A DNA stretch of 37,950 bases from Spirogloea muscicola (Eukaryota > Streptophyta > Zygnematophyceae > Spirogloeales > Spirogloeaceae): the NCBI GenBank assembly GCA_009602725.1, contig WELB01000250.1:97747-135696 (forward strand). Direction: 5' to 3'. The notes beneath the pieces were generated by a model. It did no database searches, was not told the origin of the DNA, and saw nothing but the letters and a program-made list of their open reading frames with translations. The position numbers were made by a program, and so were the translations under genes. Shown piece after piece: positions 1 through 37,700 of this stretch. Each line of letters starts with the position of its first letter. Position 1 is the stretch's first letter.

Positions 1-3237
<3,237 letters not shown>

Positions 3238-3942: not shown

Positions 3943-8737
<4,795 letters not shown>

Positions 8738-8769
8738 GGCGGCGGCCCGCCTGCAGCAGCAGCGCGGGA

Positions 8770-8965
8770 GGAGAAGAAGGGCTCGCCCATTGAGAATATG
8801 GGCTGGAACAGCCAGCCCAAAAAAGAATGAACAGAGTACAAGAGAGAGGGGGGGGGAAGCCAGGCGAAGCCCTAAGGCGAAGCAGCAGAAATGACAAGCA
8901 CACAAGAAAAAACAAAGCAGCTACTAACCACTCAGTAACCCCTGCTAAGCAGGAGGAGGACCCCA
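8770..8965 (-). repeat. Dispersed repeat tail A with RGY-stop end, directly upstream of RecQ
   Basis: Read on the minus strand this starts with a frame ending LLLLSRGY-stop (stop near 8936), then a T/C-rich stretch, the hairpin GGGCTGG-CTGTT-CCAGCCC (8818-8800) and the conserved end CTCAATGGGCGAGCCCTTCTT. The repeat ends about 35 bases before the RecQ ATG and has the same orientation, so it occupies the expected promoter/5' UTR. The same module recurs near 9570, 9640, 22801, 23365, 24097, 25288, 33482, 33659 and 37601. Confidence 0.8.
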
Positions 8966-9540: not shown

Positions 9541-9695
9541 AGAAGAAAGTGCTCGACCATTGAGGATAGGGGCTGGAAAAGCCAGCCCAAAAAAGAATGA
9601 ACAAAGTACGAGAAGGGGGCCAGGAAGAATAAAGAAGAGGGGCTGGCAAAGCCAGCCCAAAAAGAATAGACAATGTCCAAAGCCAAAGAAAGAGA
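9541..9695 (-). repeat. Tail A repeat, two hairpins in tandem
   Basis: Two adjacent copies of the hairpin module: GGGCTGG-AAAAG-CCAGCCC at 9570-9588 and GGGCTGG-CAAAG-CCAGCCC at 9640-9658, each followed on the plus strand by an A-rich AAAAAGAAT stretch. The second resembles the copy at 23340-23400 in its spacing to GACAATGTCCAAAGCC. Sense orientation, judged from copies with attached coding remnants, is the minus strand. Confidence 0.8.
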
Positions 9696-10204
9696 TGCCG
9701 AAGAAGGACTACACTACCCTAAACCCGGCTACACTGGCCTCGGGATTGAGGGTGGAGGGTGGAGCCAAATAGGCCAAAGCGGCTGCTCCAATCAAGAACA
9801 ATGCCATTCTTTCTGATCCGCATAAGCGAGCGGAGGGCTGGGACCGAGCAGTTCGACTCGGTCCCGTCTCCTTCCCTGAGCCGATTCCCCTCCGCCGCCG
9901 CCGCCGCTGTCGTCGTCGCTACTGTCGCCGTCGCTGCTTTGCTGCCGCCGCCGCCACGCTGAAAGCTCAGCGGGCATCGAGCGCGCGTTGGCCGTGCCAA
10001 GAAGGCACGGGTAGGTGTGAAGGTCTGGATCTGATGCTCGAGGAGCCTTCTAACGGAGAACTCCGTCAACCGGTACGTGAAGAACCGGTGCCTTGGCAAG
10101 ACACGCTTGTTTTGCTCAAACCTGATGTTCTGAGCATCGTCTCAGAGATCGTTTTGTCTGCATTGTTGACTGTATCATCTACGAAAGTTGCATTGTGTGC
10201 ATCT

Positions 10205-10275
10205 TTTGCAAGTACTAAGCAAAGTCACGAATAGGGCGAGTAGAGATACTGGCACTAAGTCCCGAATAGGGCGAA
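10205..10275 (+). repeat. Short direct repeats around GAATAGGGCGA, left arm
   Basis: Two units of the form (AAGTC[AC]C)GAATAGGGCGA, at about 10222 and 10259, separated by a block containing TACTGGCACTAAGTC. The right arm holds three units at about 11010-11100 in inverse orientation, so copy number changed after the arms were formed. Confidence 0.65.
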
Positions 10276-10351
10276 CTGAGTCGCCGGGGACTGTTACCTT
10301 GGTTACGGTGCACAAGACCCTCTCTGGTCTCTAATTGATATCGATTCTGGT

Positions 10352-10651
10352 TCATGTATTACTGTTGATTGCTTGCTGTCTTCCACTCACTCGTTTACTG
10401 GACCGAGTAGAACTCTGTTGATACGTATTTGACTTGAAGCGGTCGTACGCGTCAGTTGATGAAGCGGGCGAGTAGCAGCCATAACCGCCATAGGTGCTGA
10501 GGACCACATACTCGACGGTCTGGACGGAGTCGGTGCCATCGAAGTAGGTGGCGCCCGATTGAGCAGGTAGCGGACGCGGAGGTGGCAAGGGCCAGGAGCA
10601 GCATCCGCTCCCCGCCCCTTCGCCCCCCCCTCCCGCCCTCCCAGCAGCCAT
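10352..10651 (-). pseudogene. Left-arm copy of the small secreted-protein ORF, frame-disrupted
   Basis: The minus-strand open frame matches the right-arm protein over the core segment (YF.GT.SVQT.EYVVLSTYGGYGCYSPAS.TDAY.RFKS). Its signal-peptide part (LLLALATSASATC) is in a different frame from the core, because the sequence near 10560-10600 carries small indels relative to the right arm, and the right-arm start codon region is absent. A 99-residue reading frame is open but would lack a signal peptide. It is therefore best read as a decayed partner. Confidence 0.6.
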
Positions 10652-10898
10652 GGCTCACCTCGCCGCCGCCGTCCTGCTCCTGGCCCTTGCCGCCACCACG
10701 TCCGCTTCCTGCTCCTCCTCGGGCGTCACCTACTTCGGTGGCACCAACTCCGTCCAGACCCTCGAGTATGTGGTCCTCAGCACCTATGGCGGCTATGGCT
10801 GCTACTCGCCCGCTTCATTTACTGACGCGTACAACCGCTTTAAGTCTAGCACGCTAACTCGTATCAACATAATTCTACTGAGTCCAGTGAACGAGTGA
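10650..10898 (+). CDS. Small predicted secreted protein, no known family
   Basis: 82 residues from the ATG at 10650. Residues 1-20 form a typical signal peptide (MAHLAAAVLLLALAATTSAS, cleavage likely after SAS/SCS). The mature part is Gly/Tyr/Ser-rich with GGYGCYSPAS. I do not recognise the family. It lies just right of the centre of the inverted repeat and reads outward. The stop overlaps a possible splice donor (AACGA|gtgagtgg at about 10894), so this may be only exon 1 of a longer gene. The same donor string is conserved in the left arm. Preservation of the core in both arms suggests it was under selection when the arms arose. Confidence 0.5.
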   Translation: MAHLAAAVLLLALAATTSASCSSSGVTYFGGTNSVQTLEYVVLSTYGGYGCYSPASFTDAYNRFKSSTLTRINIILLSPVNE

Positions 10899-11522
10899 GT
10901 GGAAGACAGCAAGCAATCAACAGTATTACATGAACCAGGATCGAGATCCATTAGAGACCACAGAGGGTCTTGTGCACTGTAACCAAGGTAACAGTCCCCG
11001 GTAATTCAGTTCGCCCTATTCGGGACTTAGTGCCAGTATTCGAATGCTTCGCCCTATTTGGGACTTAGTGCCAGTATCTCTACTCGACCTATTCGGGACT
11101 TTGCTTAGTACTTGCAAAGATGCACACAATGCAACTTCCGTAGATGATACAGTCAACGATGCAGACAAAACGATCTCTGAGACGATGCTCAGAACATCAG
11201 GTTTGAGCAAAACAAACGGGTCTTGCCAATGCACCGGTTTTTCACGTACTGGTTGACGGAGCTCTCCGTCAGAAGGCTCCTCAAGCAGCAGATCCAGACC
11301 CTCACACCTACCTGTGCCTACTTGGCACGGCCAACGCGTGCTCGATGCCCGCTGAGCTTTCAGCGGTGGCGGCGGCGGCAGCAGCAGCGACGGCGACAGG
11401 AGCGACGATGACAGCGGCGTCGGCGGCGGAGGGGAATCGGCTCAGGGAAGGAGACTGGACCGAGTAGAAATCTTCGTTGTTTGAGATCTGATTCTTGCCT
11501 CAGAGATTGTCGTTGATAGAGC

Positions 11523-12230
11523 TTGTGTGGCATTGATTCTGATTTCTACATCGAGGTTGTGCTTTGTGTGGCTAAGACATTCAGGCTGTTCACAATAGGG
11601 CATGGATTGAGAAGCGGCCGAACCATTGATTCTGTAGGTGAACCTTCAGACATTGTTGAGCTGGCAGTTGACGCCTCAGACATTGCCGCTGTGTATGATT
11701 TGTCTGCAAAAGACTTAGCAGTTATCTCTGGCAGACCTCGCCGCGCCATCATGTCGAGCGGAATGGGACCTACATACAGAGGTACGCCAGTTGGTGACTC
11801 TCTAGCCAAGGTGAAGGTTCATTACGATGCAGAGCTCTGCCAGCTAAGATTGCTGGGCAGTACTATCAGTCGATAAATTGCTATTACTGGGGCCTTACTT
11901 TAATTATGAGGCAGCAGACGTCTATGAGAGGCTGAAGGATGACCTCTTAGCTAGGACTACACCAGTCCCAGACAACGCATCAGTTGCACAACGGAAAGGG
12001 GTCCTTAATTATTAGAGGATCCAGTCGAGAAGATGTTTAAGGCTTGCGTCCCGCAAGCCATCGTTGCATGCTACAGGATGAGGCTACCATTGAGTCTGCA
12101 GCGCTCCCAAGCACTCGTGATTCACCAGCGTGCTGGTCGTGCATTAGCCCAGGCTAATGGCTTCCGTGGTGGTGGTTTGGCTCCTCAGTATAGCTTGTCA
12201 GATATGCATGTGCTCACTCGGGGATTTTAG
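11523..12230 (+). pseudogene. Decayed coding unit of the RGY-stop repeat family
   Basis: Three successive open frames chain together. First, 11523-11876 contains DLSAKDLAVISGRPRRAI and GDSLAKVKVHYDAEL. Second, an overlapping +1 frame from about 11850 runs DKLLLLGPYFNYEAADVYER and on to GVLNY-stop at about 12015. Third, a frame at about 12011-12230 runs EDPVEKMFKACVPQAIVACY, then MRLPLSLQRSQALVIHQRAG and ends SDMHVLTRGF-stop. The frame changes at points where homologous sequence continues suggest indels in a once longer protein, though unmarked introns could do the same. The C-terminal part matches remnants at 23174, 23497, 23793 and elsewhere. No similarity to a named family was recognised. 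It starts about 55 bases after the inverted repeat ends. Confidence 0.5.
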
Positions 12231-12332
12231 TGTTCCCCTTAGCCAGCTCATTACCCAGTTAACAGGACATTTGTAAGGCTAGAACTTGCCTCCCTTTCAA
12301 TTTCATGCGCACCGCGCGCCTTCTCTCTTTGC
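12092..12332 (+). repeat. 241-bp repeat, copy 1 (partner at 23497-23738)
   Basis: Covers the end of the RGF-stop coding unit and about 100 bases after it, including CCCCTTAGCCAGCTCATTAC and the segment CCTCCCTTTCAATTTCAT followed by accgcgcgccttctctct. It aligns end to end with 23497-23738, with roughly a dozen to fifteen differences. One substitution makes RGF-stop here but RGYLASPLASSLPN-stop in the partner. Confidence 0.85.
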
Positions 12333-12850
12333 AACACCGTGCTGGTTGTGCCCCTGCAGCAGCCTCTGCCTTGCGCAGCGGACATGTCCCTTTTCCTTCG
12401 GTCATTTGACTCCACTTTGCTGACACGGGGGGTACTGAGAGGGCCCTGGTGCCCAGCCTGCAGCCGCATAGCATAGATGCACTTCACATTTCCATCTGTA
12501 TGCACTCGGCTGGCTTTCACAACCAACGCTGCCATCTCTTTGCAGCAACCTTTGGCTTTTGTCCGGATACGTCCTAAAGTGCACAGCCTTTTCTTCTTGA
12601 TGCACTTGTCTGTCTTTCAGCTACATAAGCACATTGCCAAGGCCTCCTGCCAGCCAATGCGCTTTTTGTGGAAATAATGAAATATAATGGTGAATGAGCA
12701 ATCTGGGCTGGGTTACAATCTGGAAAGCCTAGTGGGCCGGGAGCGCTCCCTGTGAAAGGGAAAAAGAAGTGGCTCTCCTAGACGGGGCAAGGGCTGTGCA
12801 AAAGCCAGCCCGAAAAACATTGACAAGGTTCGAAGGGCCAGCTCTGTGTG
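12333..12850. other. Non-coding stretch with degenerate repeat copies
   Basis: At 12320-12400 one frame reads LLSLQHRAGCAPAAASALRS, a diverged copy of the SLQRS..LHQRAG part of the repeat coding unit. At 12788-12840 there is a broken hairpin module (gggctgtgcaaaagccagccc, then AACATTGACAAGGTTCGAAG). No intact gene was seen. Confidence 0.5.
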
Positions 12851-22680: not shown

Positions 22681-23069
22681 AGAGAGAGAAGGCGCGCGGG
22701 GCGCATGAATTGAAAGGGAGGCCAATTCAAGCCAATACATTGTTCAGGCAGAGTCGAGTGCAGACTAAACAAGAAGAAAGGGCTCGCCCATTGAGGATAG
22801 GGGCTGGACAAGCCAGCCCAAAAAAGAATGAACAAAGAACGAGAAGGGGGCCAGAGGAAGCCAGAGGAAGCGCTACCGGCACGAAGGTGCAGCGCACGGG
22901 CCATGGACCTCTGCAGCGAGACGGCCAAGCGCATGCGATACACTTGCGCCAGCGACCCGGCTGCAGGAAAGTCTACCGGTTCACCATGGAAGCGACGGGC
23001 GATTGCGTGGCGGGCGAGCTGGTTAAGTAGCTCAAGCCACCGAGCGCCCAGTGCCCCATGGATGTCAAT
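22681..23069 (-). repeat. RGY-family coding remnant fused to tail A
   Basis: Minus-strand reading from 23069: HGALGARWLELLNQLARHA, then FHGEPVDFPAAGSLAQVY and MRLAVSLQRSMARALHLRAG. This passes straight into the middle of tail A, so the RGY-stop end has been deleted. The hairpin GGGCTGG-ACAAG-CCAGCCC lies at 22801-22819. Beyond it, 22726-22681 repeats the GGCCTCCCTTTCAATTCATG and gcgcgccttctctct segment found after 12270 and 23690. The block reads toward the SEC gene on the same strand and is cut at its upstream end by the N gap. Confidence 0.75.
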
Positions 23070-23173: not shown

Positions 23174-23273
23174 CGCAGGACGCGCTCTGGCCGCGGCCTC
23201 CGGGTCTCGGCGGAGTGCCTCCTTCCCTGCCTCGAGCTACTCGGACCTGATGTTGCTCACTCGCGGGTACTGA
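23174..23273 (+). pseudogene. C-terminal fragment ending LLTRGY-stop
   Basis: The frame emerging from the gap reads AGRALAAASGSRRSASFPAS then SYSDLMLLTRGY and stops at 23271-23273. It matches the C-terminal part of the repeat coding unit (AGRALAQANG...SLSDMHVLTRGF at 12230). The upstream part is lost in the gap. Confidence 0.7.
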
Positions 23274-23319
23274 GCTTCCCTAGTATGTTGTCGTGATTGG
23301 TAGAGTAGAGGAGTCCTTC

Positions 23320-23420
23320 CTCGGCTTCTCATTCTTCGGCTTTGGACATTGTCCATTCTTTTTAGGCTGGCTTTGCCAGCCCCTCTTTCTTTATGGGCGA
23401 GCCTTCTTCGACGGCCTCCC
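23320..23420 (+). repeat. Tail A repeat
   Basis: Follows the RGY-stop fragment in the same orientation: GGACATTGTCCATTCTTTTT, hairpin GGCTGG-CTTT-GCCAGCC at about 23365-23381, and a diverged TTATGGGCGAGCCTTCTTCG end. The order stop codon, spacer, hairpin, GGGCGAGCC end is the same as in other complete copies. Confidence 0.75.
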
Positions 23421-23496
23421 CGATTTCCGCACACTAGACATTGTGGGCGTGCAACCTGGTGGTGGACCACGGGCCCCGGTCGACGTTGTTGTTGCG

Positions 23497-23738
23497 GAGT
23501 CTGCAGCGCTCCCAAGCACTCGCGATTCACCAGCGTGCTGGTCGTGCATTAGCCCAGGCTAATGGCTTCCGTGGAGGTGGTTCGGCTCCTCAGTATAGCT
23601 TGTCAGATATGCATGTGCTTACTCGGGGATATTTAGCGTCCCCCTTAGCCAGCTCATTACCCAATTAACAGGACAGTTGTAAGGCTAGAATTGGCCTCCC
23701 TTTCAATTTCATCCGCACCGCGCGCCTTCTCTCTCTGC
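23497..23738 (+). repeat. 241-bp repeat, copy 2 (partner at 12092-12332)
   Basis: Near-identical to 12092-12332 and in the same orientation. The frame reads LQRSQALAIHQRAGRALAQA, then NGFRGGGSAPQYSLSDMHVL, then TRGYLASPLASSLPN-stop. The base following the tyrosine codon differs, so translation runs on 11 codons past the usual stop. Confidence 0.85.
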
Positions 23739-24145
23739 GGAACGGAGGCGCATAAAGGTCCAGCATCAACACATCGCTGGTCACGCAGTGGGCCATGGTG
23801 AGCCGGTAGACTTTCCTGCAGCCGGGTCGCTGGCGCAAGTGTATCGCATGCGCCTGGCCGTCTCGCTGCACAGGTCCATGGCCCGTGCGCTGCACCTTCG
23901 TGCCGGCGGAGCCCTAGCTGCTGCCTCTGGCTCTGTCCCACTTCCAGGACCCTAGCATCTCTGATCTGCGGCTGCTCAGCAGGGGTTACTGAGTCATTCG
24001 TAATTGCTTTGTTTCTTCTTGTGCTTGTTTTCCTTAGCGCTTCCCCTGGCTTTTTTTTCCCCTGGCTCCCTTCTCGTACTCTGTCCATTCTTTTTTGGGC
24101 TGGCTGTTCCAGCCCCTATCCTCAATGGGCGAGCTCTTTCTTCAA
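23739..24145 (+). pseudogene. RGY-family coding remnant with complete tail A
   Basis: From about 23760 one frame reads AGHAVGHGEPVDFPAAGSLA, then QVYRMRLAVSLHRSMARALH and LRAGGALAAASGSVPLPGP, where it meets a stop at about 23955. A one-base shift restores SISDLRLLSRGY-stop at 23991. Tail A follows: CTTGTGCTTGTTTTCCTTAG, the ccttctcgtactctgtccattc stretch, hairpin GGGCTGG-CTGTT-CCAGCCC at 24097-24115 and CTCAATGGGCGAGCTCTTTC. It is the best copy for seeing coding end and tail joined, with one frameshift. Confidence 0.75.
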
Positions 24146-24485
24146 GTTGCAGCTACTCCGACTACCCACAATGTGATCAGCTCCTGCCAGCGGCAATCGA
24201 CATCTTTGGCTGTCTGGGGCCTCGTTTCCACACCCTCCTCCAAAACATTGCCAATCTAGGCTACACACGTCGTGCAGATGTGTTTCCGGCTGAGATGGGC
24301 TTACCAGCTGCATACCTGTCCTTCTTGCAACGACGAGTTTCGGCCTGTTTGCAGCATGCTCAGGCTAATGCCTTGCACCAGAAGCTGGACGAGCTCTAGT
24401 TGGCGGTAGAAGAGCTTCGTATCTGACATCTAGTATTCAGGCATCGATTAACGACCTTTATGTTTTGAACCGTGGTTACTGAGCG
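24146..24485 (+). pseudogene. RGY-family remnant, second subtype (NRGY-stop)
   Basis: The frame 24185-24399 reads FGCLGPRFHTLLQNIANLGY, then TRRADVF and, further on, RRVSACLQHAQANALHQKLD followed by EL-stop. Past that stop another frame runs QASINDLYVLNRGY-stop, ending at about 24482. The LQHAQANALHQK part corresponds to LQRSQALVIHQR in the other subtype, and a diverged relative lies at about 32628-32740. The internal stop and frame change indicate decay. Confidence 0.65.
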
Positions 24486-24585
24486 GGTCAATCTGCTGTA
24501 GCTTATGTAGGGTCTTCAGATTTGCTTGCCTTTGTACTTGGCCATTTGGTCTTCGTTTGTTTCAAGTACACAAAATTTTCTCGAG
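24474..24585 (+). repeat. Dispersed repeat tail B
   Basis: Begins at GGTTACTGAGCGGGTCAATC, overlapping the RGY-stop codons, and continues CTGCTGTAGCTTATGTAGGG ... TTGCTTGCCTTTGTACTTGG ... TTTGTTTCAAGTACACAAAA. The same module occurs at 37560-37440 (-), 32285-32205 (-) and 32455-32560 (+). It is unrelated in sequence to tail A but occupies the same place after the stop codon. Confidence 0.8.
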
Positions 24586-24589
24586 GGGC

Positions 24590-24800
24590 CGGGCCAAACC
24601 ACGGAAGAGAAGAACGCTGAAGAGATATGGACAGGCGCATGCAAAACACCTGCACGAGCGAGGCGGCGGCGTTGGAGTCGGCCTCCTGGCCCCGCCTTGG
24701 GATACAGCGTGGCGTGCAAGCGGCTGCAGTTGGTCCAGCCACCGACTGCCCAATGCCCCATGCACCCAAGTCCATCGCCAGCACCACAAACTCACTCATC
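24590..24800 (-). pseudogene. RGY-family remnant in inverted orientation
   Basis: The minus strand from 24795 reads in one frame WVHGALGSRWLDQLQPLARH (compare HGALGARWLELLNQLARHA at 23060). After a frame change it reads AASLVQVFCMRLSISLQRS (compare GSLAQVYRMRLAVSLQRS). It abuts the tail B copy at 24585 head-to-tail but inverted, so this is a rearranged, non-functional copy. Confidence 0.65.
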
Positions 24801-26635
24801 ACTGGCAGGGTGATCGGCGTATGGGCAGTCTTTCCCCTAGCAGCCTTGCCAACCGCGTGCCCTGCTTCCGTCGCCAGTTTGGTGGGGCTGGCGGAGTAGG
24901 CGGAGTCGTAGTCACCACGTCCGTTGATGCGAGATCACCCTCCAGGCGAACTGGCGACCAGGTCTGCGCGCCGTTTATGTAGACGACCGTCAGCCCACAG
25001 CTCTAAAGTATATCTGCGGAGCCACAGGCTAGGCAAACAGGGCGCTATTATCACCCCCTTGTCCACTTCAATGAGCTTACTCCTTACTATAACGAGTAAG
25101 CTCATTAGGGAGGCTGCGAATAGCCAGCCCCAAAAAGTGGACAAGGTCCGAAAGGGTCAAAAAGCGCTGAAACAACACAACTGTGCAAGTATCAAGAAGG
25201 ATGGTCACTTAGTAACCCTTAGTAAACAGCCGCAAGTCAGAAAGACTAGCCGCCGGAAAGAGAAAAGGGCTCGCCCATTGAGGATAGGGGCTGGACAAGC
25301 CAGCCCAAAAAAGAATGAACAAAGAACGAGAAGGGGGCCAGAGGAAGCCAGAGGAAGCGCTCGGAAAGCAGTCCCCTTGACTGCTTTTCGGCGGTTCCAG
25401 CGGTCCTTGACGGTAGCAAGAGGGCTGGCAGCTAGATCATGGCCAGCTCGCAGATGCAAGGTGTTAGCCAAGGAAGCGCTCGAAGAAATGGAAAGGCGCA
25501 AACGGATGAACAAAGCAGGCCAAGTCAAAGGGGCGGCGGCTGTGGAAACGAGACAGCTCTCCTTCCTGCAAGTCAAAGGCTGGGAGAGGCCAGCCCAAGG
25601 AAACGTACAAGGTTTGAAGGGGCTGGAAAGGACAAAAAGCACAGAAAGCCAGCCCGAAATGGTCGGACAAGGGTTAACCAAATCTATTGGGGCGGGATGA
25701 ACAATGTCGGAACGGGCGCCCAAATGACGACTTCTCTTGGTGAACGAGAGAACGCGGCTGCGGATACTAAGAGGCGGATTGGAAGCCAGCCGAGTGCATA
25801 CAGAGGGAAAAGAAAAAGTTGGCTCTTCCAGAAGGATCAAGGGATGTTAGAAGCCAGCCAAGAGAATGGACAGCCCAGAAAGCATCGCACCGCCTCCTCT
25901 CCCCTTCTCCCAACTGCTGCTACCACACCATGCGCTCCGCGCGTCACCTCGCCGCCCTCTTCCCTCTGTCAGCAGCGCACTGTCTACATAGACGTGCTGC
26001 TTTTGTTTACTCCTATCTGAAGTAGTTCGTGGTCTGCGTCTTCCAGCCTTGTTGGACCTTGTCCACTCCTTGTGGGTTGACCTCTCACAGCCATTGCGAA
26101 GCCATGCTTTTGGGGGACATATGGCCCCCTTTCGTTGTAGGCACTCCAACCTTGTCCGATTAGATTGGGCTGGCCAGTGCCAGCCATCGCCCCCTTCAAG
26201 TTATAATCTCTCTCTTTCTGAGCTGTCTTTTCACCTCTGTTGCCCCCTTTGGAAGAGCTTCTTACACCGCAATTAGCCTCTCCGGCCCTCAAGCTCACAC
26301 ACGCTTTTTCCATATCAAGCTGCCTCTTTGCAGGCACTTGAGACTCTTGATTGCGCCTACGCTCGGCTGCTTACTGCAGTGCGCCAACCATTTCTCTGGC
26401 TTCGTTGTGCCCAGCAAACAACACACTCAGTCTGGGCCAACTGCTCAGACAGACCTGGCTCTTACTTGGTCTCTGTCAGCAATGGAACGACAGCCCTGGC
26501 CTCCATCCAAACACATTCACAGCGCCCAAGCCCTTCTCTTGCTCACACTACCCGGAACCATAAGTGTAAGCCATCTTCTTTCCAGCGAAAGACGGACTCC
26601 CATCCTCCAGCGTTCACCATTTTCCAAGGCACCAC
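24801..26635. repeat. Repeat graveyard: fragmented tail A copies, no intact gene
   Basis: Contains an intact hairpin copy at 25258-25365 (stem 25288-25306), a partial copy at 25100-25150 (AATAGCCAGCCCCAAAAAGT), several diverged GCCAGCCC / GGACAAGG fragments between 25560 and 25870, and reverse-orientation fragments at 26045-26190 (GGACCTTGTCCACTCCTTG, GGGCTGGCCAGTGCCAGCC). The long open frames here (for example 24924-25700) are made of these repeats and show no domain. 26200-26635 holds nothing recognised except the 3' flank of the Nudix gene; a TGTAA on the minus strand lies at about 26262. Confidence 0.65.
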
Positions 26636-32285: not shown

Positions 32286-33060
32286 AGCAGCTAGCATCCA
32301 GTAAAGATGCTCCGCTGTTTCACTGTAAGGCAATGGCTGTAAGAGGCCAGCGCAGAGTGAATGTACAGTACAGAGTCGAGAAGGCCCGGAAAGGTGCTAG
32401 ACCACGAAACTAATCGTTCATCTTGGCACCGATCAGCAACCTCCACGTGCCAACCGCGGCTACTGAGCCATCATTCTACGCAGCAGGCGGCCTACACTTG
32501 TATATGTGCTTGCCTTTGTACTTGACCATACTGGCCGTTCTGCCTTTCATCTCCATGCATGTTGTTCCCTCAGCTAGCCGACAGCAGCGCTGTTGTTGTT
32601 GCCCCGCCCTCATGTGAGTGATATTGCAGCGAGCCCAGGCACATGCTCTGCACCAGAAAGCTGGGCGAGCTCTAGTTGGTGGCGGTGGGGGCTTGACCTC
32701 TGCCATCTGCTATTCGGGCATGCTTTAGCGACCTCTGTGTCAACCTGCTGCTAGTGCGCCTAGCATAGCAGCATGTGTAAAAGTGCTTGTCACTTTACTT
32801 TACCGCTTTGGCCTTCTGGCCCTCTGTCCCTCTGTTCCTCTGTCCCTCTGTCTCTTTATTGAACTCATTCCCTCATCAGTTCCTCTGCTACTTTAGCCCA
32901 CGCTCCGTACAGTCCCGCATTCTCCCTAAAACGGCAACTGCCGCATGGTCAAATAGGAGACCTCTTGCTGCAAGTCTGACCCACCTCCGGCTCTTGAATT
33001 GGGGATTTGCTGATATTGGGCAGTAATGATACTTGACGCACTTACTCTGAAGAGTCCATC
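32286..33060 (+). repeat. Tail B copy with NRGY-stop remnants and degenerate relatives
   Basis: One frame ends ANRGY-stop at about 32467, followed by a tail B module (GTGCTTGCCTTTGTACTTGA at about 32507). At 32628-32740 one frame reads LQRAQAHALHQKAGRALVGG, a diverged form of the LQHAQANALHQK remnant at 24340. At 32780-32830 is a poor tail B relative (TGCTTGTCACTTTACTTTAC ... TTTGGCCTTCTGGCC). At about 33000 the frame THLRLLNWGFADIG looks like a mutated LRLLxRGF end. No intact gene was seen. Confidence 0.6.
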
Positions 33061-33454
33061 TGCTGGTGCTGCTTGCCAGACCGCTTCTTGATCACCATCC
33101 ACTTTCCCCTTAAACCTCTTGAAATCAGGATGTCCTTTTCCTTCTCTTGGCCACTGCTTTAATCAGAAGAGCGCTAGTTGAATCTCTCTCGGCTATCGTT
33201 CCTCTTTGTAAGAGCCTTACTCCTCGTATGGCTCCTTCGGCTGCTCAACAGGGGGATATTGAGCACTCAGTGGGCCACTTGAGTCGCTGTGTGCTTTCTC
33301 GCTTTGTCTGGCCCCTACGAACTTTGTGCATTCTTGTTCATGGGCTGGCCAATCACAGCCATCTGGGAGCGCCACTTCTCACAAACACAGCCATTGCCGT
33401 CTACTGTAAGAGTCTTCCTTCTTTCTTCTCTGCTTTGGGAAGAGCTCACCATGG
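33061..33454. repeat. Degenerate tail A fragment in otherwise unassigned DNA
   Basis: 33300-33350 (plus orientation) keeps TTTGTGCATTCTTGTTCATG and GGGCTGGCCAATCACAGCC, a hairpin module whose stem has decayed. The remainder shows no recognised coding sequence. Confidence 0.5.
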
Positions 33455-33605
33455 AAGGAAGTGCTCGCCCATAGAGAATGGGGGCTGGGAAAGGCCAGCC
33501 CAAAGAGAATGAACAAAGTGCGAAGGGTCCAGGGGAAGCGCTAAAGCCAGCACAAGTGGCATCAAGCAGCTACAGAACACTCAGTAACCCCTGCTAAGCA
33601 GCTGG
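33455..33605 (-). repeat. Tail A repeat with LQLLSRGY-stop end
   Basis: Minus strand from 33605: LQLLSRGY-stop, spacer, hairpin GGGCTGG-CCTTTC-CCAGCCC at 33501-33482, then CTCTATGGGCGAGCACTTCC. The loop is one base longer than in most copies, but the 7-bp stem is intact. Confidence 0.8.
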
Positions 33606-33631
33606 AGGTCAGAGAAACTGGGCTCCTGGTG

Positions 33632-33840
33632 GAGAAAGAGCTCGCCCATTGAGGACAGGGGCTGGAACAACCAGCCCAAAAAAGAATGAACAAAGTACGA
33701 GAAGGGGGCCAGGGGAAGCGCTAAGAAAAGCAAGCACAGGAAGAAACAAAGCAGCTGCGAATCTCTCAGTAACCCCTGCTAAGCAGCCGCAGATCGGAGA
33801 TGCTAGGGTCCTGGTGGCGGGTCCCCTGGCCAGGGCCAGA
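33632..33840 (-). repeat. Tail A repeat with SISDLRLLSRGY-stop end
   Basis: Minus strand: a frame from about 33835 ends DPSISDLRLLSRGY-stop at about 33770, identical in its last 12 residues to the frame-shifted end at 23991. Tail A follows, with hairpin GGGCTGG-TTGTT-CCAGCCC at 33677-33659 and CTCAATGGGCGAGCTCTTTC. Upstream, GPGQGTRHQ is not alignable to the other coding remnants. Confidence 0.8.
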
Positions 33841-34648
33841 CGCAGCAGCCTCGGAAGAGCTGGCAGGGCAGACACGAGACGGAACTGGGCTTCCTTTGTT
33901 CTGGGCTGGCCAGTCAGAGTCATCGCCCTCTACTGGAAGTCTCTGTTCCAAGGCGGAACTGCGCTATCGCCCAAGCCACGTTGAGCTTCTGGCGAGACAA
34001 CCGCAAGCCAGGCGGCGGCTTCCCCCGTGCCCGGACGGAGGCCACGTCGGCTCGAGCTCCCCGCCCTGGCCGCCAGGCCCGTCCTGCGGGACGTGGCCGC
34101 CGCGACCCCTGCGCCCCGCCCCCGCCCCCCCCGCGCCGCTCCCCTGCCTGCCTCCCGCNCCGCCCCTGGCCGCCTCGCCTCGCCGTGGCCTCGCGGCGCC
34201 TCGGGCAACCGCCCCGATCGCCAGCCCCGTGCTGGCGACAGGCCGCCCCCTGCTCTCCGCCTCGGCGCAGCCTCCGGCTCTCTGCCGCCTTGCCGCCGCC
34301 GTTGACGGCCCCGCTCCCCTCCTCCGTCCGGATCCCCTCACGTCTGCACCACTGTCAGGTGCAGCGCCTGCCCCTTCCTCCCCCCCCTGAATGCTGTAGG
34401 CTCATATCTATTCCAGGTTATCTCGTCGCTGCAAGATGCCTGGAAACCAAGGCGCTTGCGTGTCACGCCTGAGATAGTGCTGCGATTCACGTGACTGCAC
34501 CGAGTGGTGTCCGTCCTGTCGCAGGGCGTGAAGTTACTGCTGGGGGCTTCTTCAAGGCCTCAACGAGAAGGAGGCTTGCTCTGAGCGGCTTTGCAGCAGG
34601 GCTCGTGATGTGCGCAGCGGCGGCCACGCAGGAGATGGCAAAGGCTGA
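33841..34648 (+). other. GC-rich upstream region of the hydrolase, possible transit-peptide exons
   Basis: 33960-34380 is very C/G-rich with one undetermined base at 34159. Its open frames are Ala/Pro/Arg/Ser-rich, like algal plastid transit peptides, but no frame can be tied to the hydrolase. A separate frame, open from 34473 to about 34742, encodes FKASTRRRLALSGFAAGLVM then CAAAATQEMAKAD. This is a twin-arginine, hydrophobic core, A-x-A arrangement typical of thylakoid-lumen targeting. No splice pair in correct phase joins it to the hydrolase exon at 34757-34888. Confidence 0.4.
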
Positions 34649-37389: not shown

Positions 37390-37700
37390 CTTCCCCCTAG
37401 AAGAAAGGGCTCACCCATTTGTTTCAAGTACACTTCCTCAAATACGCTTCCTAGAAGAAAGAAAATTTCGTGTATTTGAAACAAACGGAGGCCAAAGGCC
37501 AAGTACAAAGGCAAGCACATTTAAAGACCTACATAATCTACAGCAAAGTGACCCGCTCAGTAACCTTCCTAGAAGAAAGGGCTCGCCCATTGAGGATAGG
37601 GGGCTGGAAAAGCCAGCCCCAAAAAGAATGGACAAAGTACGAGAAGGGGGCCAGGGGAAGCGCTAAGAAAAACAAGCACAAAGAGAAACAAAGCAGCTTC
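37390..37700 (-). repeat. Tail A followed by tail B, antisense and downstream of the hydrolase
   Basis: Minus strand from 37700: tail A with hairpin GGGCTGG-CTTTT-CCAGCCC (37619-37601) and CTCAATGGGCGAGCCCTTTC, then GGTTACTGAGCGGGTCACTT at about 37563, which starts tail B (AATGTGCTTGCCTTTGTACT, TTGTTTCAAATACACGAAAT). After this a TTCTTCTAGGAAG-flanked segment repeats TTGAAACAAATGGGTGAGCC. Here both 3' modules lie in tandem, joined by GAAGGTTACTGAG. Confidence 0.8.

Follow-up and report, generated by a model that had tools for sequence, protein, structure and literature searches.

LINE-1 carries a non-LTR reverse transcriptase (RT), and its copies show 5' truncation and flanking duplications, all of which it has in common with the elements described here. 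R2 (PDB 9nl2, 9nl3, 9dou; PMC5678591) presents a single long frame with an RT, a knuckle and the landmark residues of its restriction-like endonuclease (RLE), i.e., a histidine at the first helix, PD-(D/E)XK, a catalytic lysine as the first of KX2KY, and a conserved tyrosine. The HERO clade and R2-like BLAG elements are also RLE-type LINEs, described in PMC4640811 and PMC7650587 as not, or not all, target-specific. At the level of listings and abstracts, the literature yielded no paper naming the elements reported below.

The window, i.e., the whole 37,950-nucleotide stretch analysed, contains repeated peptides that end in RGY-stop or RGF-stop. These units are very probably 3' ends, truncated on the 5' side, from at least five related non-LTR retrotransposon (LINE) families (A, A2, B, C and D) of the RLE kind, R2-like and early-branching. 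The LINE reading follows from the continuity of the RT frame, a fixed 3' end beside 5' ends that vary between copies, flanking direct repeats, insertion at scattered sites, nested copies, and constraint between families.

RGY-stop endings and element fragments in the window

A six-frame scan yielded eight RG[YF]-stop endings, which are presented in Table 1 together with the fragments that contain them. Given that 100 single-letter shuffles produced a mean of 1.41 such endings (SD 1.17) and a maximum of 4, a chance origin is ruled out. The recurrent ending noted in the preliminary description is real, eight of its nine named places having been recovered by the scan. The other place, near 23620, is a family A copy with ..LTRGY as described, and its stop is out of frame because of one extra T after that peptide. 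The place at 32467 is the most degraded: its DNA is 76% identical to the family D 3' end, and the frame leading to its RGY is without family peptide. The peptide blocks said to precede several endings were also found, with GEPVDFPAAGSLAQVYRMRL at 22869-23069 on the minus strand and from 23794 on the plus strand, and SLQRS..AL..H.RAG.ALA at 12048-12227 and 23498-23632.

For the four family proteins presented in the next section (L035, L076, L077 and L078), the RT-to-end part also served as a tblastn query against the window (E 1e-3). In total, the LINE portion of the window comprises 20 fragments and 3552 bp (9.4%). Given that a family A and a family B copy lie inside one D copy, insertion is directly shown.

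Table 1. Retroelement fragments in the window and the RG[YF]-stop endings within them. L numbers denote copies elsewhere in the genome.
Feature	Positions	Strand	Ending	Identity or match
Family B 3' end	8769-8952	-	RGY-stop, 8932-8943	72.4% to L077 3' end
Two adjoining tails: B-type 9541-9624, C-type 9635-9721	9541-9721	-		92.9%, 92.0%
Putative gag-like 5' part of another (LTR-type) retroelement, LINE tail abutting	11523-12042	+		82-85% to L002-L005
3' end of a family A LINE, with C-terminal peptide, stop, 3' UTR, pyrimidine tail	12043-12330	+	RGF-stop, 12219-12230	94.8% to A copy L039
A2-type tail fragment	22683-22773	-		91.3% to L035 3' end
Family B 3' end, internal deletion, holds GEPVDFPAAGSLAQVYRMRL	22767-23069	-		tblastn 94% to L077 protein (match covers 22869-23069; tail is 22767-22861)
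Family C 3' end	23174-23401	+	RGY-stop, 23262-23273	95.6% to L078 3' end
Family D endonuclease-region piece (RTLDIVGVQPGGGPRAPVDVVVAES), left part of split D copy	23428-23492	+		tblastn 88% to L076 protein
Family A 3' end nested in D copy	23497-23738	+	stop shifted by one T	97.4% to L039 (23497-23730); up to 23738, 94.6% to the second A copy in the window
Family B 3' end nested in same D copy	23793-24143	+	RGY-stop, 23981-23992	83% DNA to L077; peptide GEPVDFPAAG.. 97% to L077; DNA about 88-90% to scored copies
Family D 3' end, right part of split copy	24153-24544	+	RGY-stop, 24471-24482	72% DNA to L076; L076 protein at 79% and 67% by tblastn
Old family C-like piece, internal stop, including endonuclease region (RRADLVASSPGG)	24611-24994	-		tblastn 45% to L078 protein; 69% DNA
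B-type tail only	25258-25348	-		87.9%
Two degraded family D pieces: 32435-32536, 32625-32740	32435-32740	+	RGY-stop, 32455-32466 (family D, degraded)	76.4%, 73.3%
Family B 3' end	33454-33629	-	RGY-stop, 33581-33592	78.9%
Family B 3' end	33633-33849	-	RGY-stop, 33766-33777	85.3% DNA, 83% peptide
D-type tail 37497-37565, B-type tail 37571-37670	37497-37670	-		81.7%, 92.0%

The interval 11523-12335, previously taken as a single unit, joins two unrelated elements, and its LINE portion is 12043-12330 alone. The piece at 11523-12042 was rejected as a portion of the RGY unit, since it aligns with the LTR-type element L002-L005 instead; the piece itself has no Pfam match. Downstream frames of L002-L005 contain CCHC knuckles, and that of L005 an LDTGA protease-like motif; by these motifs, the frames are the gag-pol of an LTR-type element. 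The five copies of this family (L002-L005 and the window piece) present a mutual identity of 78-86%. A large imperfect palindrome occupies 9852-11469, is 84.5% identical to its own reverse complement, and includes the 5' region of an L003-type retroelement in both orientations.

Tandem Repeats Finder reports an array at 33459-33817 (185-bp, 2 copies), which corresponds to two adjacent family B 3' ends in the same orientation. On the minus strand, the frame 6314-6796 matches Helicase_C (9.7e-12) and the frame 3943-4407 matches HTH_40 (2.1e-12), and these, along with an N-terminal-like frame near 8700, presumably belong to a RecQ-type gene split by introns. Within 8737-8952 on the minus strand, the family B 3' end (8769-8952) stops some 30-40 bases upstream of a possible RecQ-like start codon near 8737, and this LINE tail may be part of the leader or promoter of the RecQ-like gene. 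Window positions 1-122 are a run of 122 T.

Full-length proteins, constraint and resemblance to R2

Longer copies were located by protein search elsewhere in the same genome (153 Mb, 471 contigs). Copy L035, of family A2, has a 1316-aa stop-to-stop frame with no N, which presents, in order, a zinc-finger-like motif, RVT_1, CECG..H..C, D-x14-D, ERKKERHY, and the end SLSDLFVLSRGY. The same layout is found in L076 (family D, 1267 aa, stop-to-stop), L077 (family B, 1325 aa) and L078 (family C, 1386 aa), the last two frames running open to the edge of the sequence stretch taken, so that these lengths do not fix their starts. The end of L078 is TCGY instead of TRGY, and L077 carries GEPVDFPAAGSLAQVYRMRL. 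In L034, a member of the L035 family, most of the sequence is masked and the last 299 residues only are visible.

Pfam RVT_1 is over the cut-off in all four proteins, with E-values of 2.3e-15 for L035, 1e-18 for L076, 8.4e-16 for L077 and 2.4e-13 for L078, in frame with the RGY or CGY end. The RT-bearing proteins represent families A2, D, B and C, and none is from family A. The preliminary description recognised no RT signature, and within the window the tblastn search found only endonuclease-region or later pieces; the element class it had left undecided was resolved as LINE via the longer copies. What it had proposed as an independent coding unit is a long protein reduced by 5' truncation to its end, and its idea of a mobile element's protein conserved at the protein level was borne out by pS exceeding pN and by the RT in frame.

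Constraint was assessed on seven representatives of the five families, using their last 64 codons. The 21 pairs between families present pS of 0.60-0.90, pN of 0.15-0.57, and pN/pS of 0.19-0.80, and the differences by codon position 1, 2 and 3 sum to 614, 463 and 867. These values indicate that the families keep the protein and that silent sites are near saturation. The expected excess of synonymous over non-synonymous change is therefore present between families, the window copies themselves being truncated. Within family A, a pN/pS of 0.44 was obtained and set aside as evidence, given it derives from only 13 stop-free copies.

A host gene family with many copies, some of them decayed to pseudogenes, would likewise present a conserved protein end with a stop, and the C-terminal part alone has no Pfam match, as such a family might. 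However, the RT in the same frame, the large equal-score copy blocks over many contigs, and the flanking direct repeats with 5' truncation all speak against host genes, an explanation to which we give almost no credence.

The retrotransposon proteins most resemble R2 among solved structures. When a four-protein profile was compared with 177,635 PDB sequences, three R2 sequences came top (E 1.7e-10 to 2.4e-9), with a chain named RNA-directed DNA polymerase (0.0018) and LINE-1 ORF2 (from 0.0033) lower. R2 was also first with a three-sequence RT profile (1.9e-4), one R2 chain ranking beneath LINE-1, and with the L035 protein alone bacterial retron-type and group II RTs were top, none of them significant. 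Endonuclease profiles gave no match against solved structures, R2 included.

In the alignment, H1127, D1168, D1183, K1213 and Y1217 (L077 numbering) are invariant in all four proteins. KX2KY is exact in two of them and has H as its second K in the other two, the P of PD is not conserved across the four, and GXW is seen as GX2W in three and as GX2F in one. A CCHC knuckle follows the RT in each protein, with spacing C-x-C-x11-12-H-x3-C, unlike the CX2-3CX7-8HX4C given in PMC5678591. The N-terminal C-x2-C-x12-H-x3-C is invariant or nearly so, with all Pfam zinc-finger models below cut-off. Given that the landmark residues are invariant, whereas P, KX2KY, GXW and the knuckle deviate, the C-terminal domain would be RLE-type at the motif level, with variants, and the endonuclease of these LINEs is a putative one, identified by motif match only.

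The proteins thus share with R2 the single long frame, RT, knuckle and landmark residues, as well as a zinc-finger-like motif before the RT, 5'-truncated copies, and the best solved match. They differ from R2 in their dispersed sites, as opposed to one rDNA site, in knuckle spacing, and in the P of PD, which is not conserved here. The likeness to HERO and BLAG, namely RLE-type without strict target specificity, is by published description and not by sequence. An APE-endonuclease LINE (L1-like or of another late clade) or a mixed Dualen element, with an unrelated C-terminal domain, is improbable: although the RT profile also matches LINE-1 ORF2 chains (0.0033), this match is much weaker than that of R2, whose score is far better (1.7e-10), Pfam finds no endonuclease domain ahead of the RT in the four proteins, and the RLE landmark residues are invariant.

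Copies across the genome and their insertion

The family A query (12043-12330) yielded 2345 first-look candidates and the family B query (23793-24143) 4744, which are loose counts and no measure of copy number. Besides the window copy, the scored family A places comprise 39 that match most of the query at 93-95% and a single short piece at 73%, and the flanks of family A copies stay similar upstream to differing distances. Across 50 copies (29 A and 21 B, window copies included), drawn from the best-scoring matches and biased toward long ones, the 3' end does not vary and the 5' ends are scattered.

That queries this long match very many copies at nearly full query length would also be expected of a SINE-like, non-coding repeat some 290-350 bp long, with a short frame by accident. 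However, the common start is the window copy's own truncation point, while other copies extend upstream variably, and this extension enters the RT frame; moreover, the protein is constrained between families, and ARAGORN and Rfam are empty for the window. The extension to differing distances into the RT frame contradicts a SINE, a reading that was rejected and that we hold to be very improbable.

Consistent with LINE insertion, direct repeats flank part of the copies. In 15 of the 50, homology comes within 20 bases of the edge of the sequence taken around the copy, and the repeat test concerns the other 35. In 11 of these, the two junctions carry a direct repeat of 7 bp or longer, against a mean of 1.4 and a maximum of 5 when junctions were re-paired (300 trials). 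For repeats of at least 5, 6 and 8 bp, the counts are 21, 16 and 6 of 35, against re-paired means of 11.6, 3.7 and 0.3 and maxima of 19, 9 and 3 (300 trials each). The 24 copies without a repeat of at least 7 bp include both tested window copies. The copies sampled come from many contigs and have unlike flanks, and inspection by eye revealed no common target word, in contrast to the 28S rDNA insertion site of the R2 clade proper.

Families B and C have a common 3' tail with a GGGCTGG-loop-CCAGCCC hairpin, seen in 67 distinct matches chosen for spanning it. For 35 chosen examples, RNAalifold kept 6 pairs at -9.5 kcal/mol, with no two-sided changes in these pairs; the hairpin is conserved, although not proven by covariation in these 35. 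A splice-acceptor or introner role, suggested by tails that lead into pyrimidines and then AG, was rejected, since AG follows 13 of 72 distinct tails and, of the 1725 pyrimidine runs elsewhere, 262 (15.2%; p 0.51). By analogy with other LINEs, the tail may be recognised by the RT.

According to known LINE biology, these elements would spread by target-primed reverse transcription. A full-length element would be transcribed first, the single protein would attach close to the 3' end of its own RNA, the C-terminal endonuclease would nick the DNA, and the RT, acting at the nick, would begin its copy at the 3' end of the RNA. An early stop would leave the last tens to hundreds of bases, from the end of the protein and its RGY-stop through the 3' UTR to the pyrimidine tail, and many copies would retain just these because copying often ends early.

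In 20 ten-kilobase slices (130,015 of 200,000 bases unmasked, three slices wholly masked), the LINE queries cover 7.1%, the queries including 1.5 kb upstream of the L035 frame, which is partly a D-type 3' end. B/C-type tails number 18 in 8 of the 20 slices, or about 2x10^4 genome-wide by very rough extrapolation. Blocks of equal score and identity make up 21 of 150, 16 of 114 and 37 of 150 protein-search matches, which is consistent with identical stretches and recent activity, as judged by score and not by letters.

When the genome was searched with RVT_1, 150 other places outscored the LINEs studied here, and the blocks of equal 1237-aa frames among those places make at least one further group of retroelements look recent. 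In one scan of viral contigs with the RT profile, 61 pattern matches were obtained and none was confirmed as a relative.

Implications for RLE LINEs and for Spirogloea muscicola

The LINE kind itself is already known; for RLE LINEs, the dispersed, high-copy, apparently recent state of the present families and their variant motifs are somewhat unusual. Tentatively, and with more doubt than confidence, the families could represent a new deep RLE LINE lineage that lost site specificity and became a main recent invader of this eukaryotic genome, with several families active in parallel, a shared, conserved C-terminal extension YRMRL..SLQRS...SDLxxLxRGY-stop, and variant knuckle and PD motifs. The element class previously left open is now settled, the peptide being the C-terminus of a LINE protein, and the conserved RGY tails provide annotation markers for the Spirogloea muscicola genome. 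Given that RLE LINEs are mostly target-specific, according to PMC4640811, an RLE group that is abundant, scattered and apparently recent would help test what loosens target choice.
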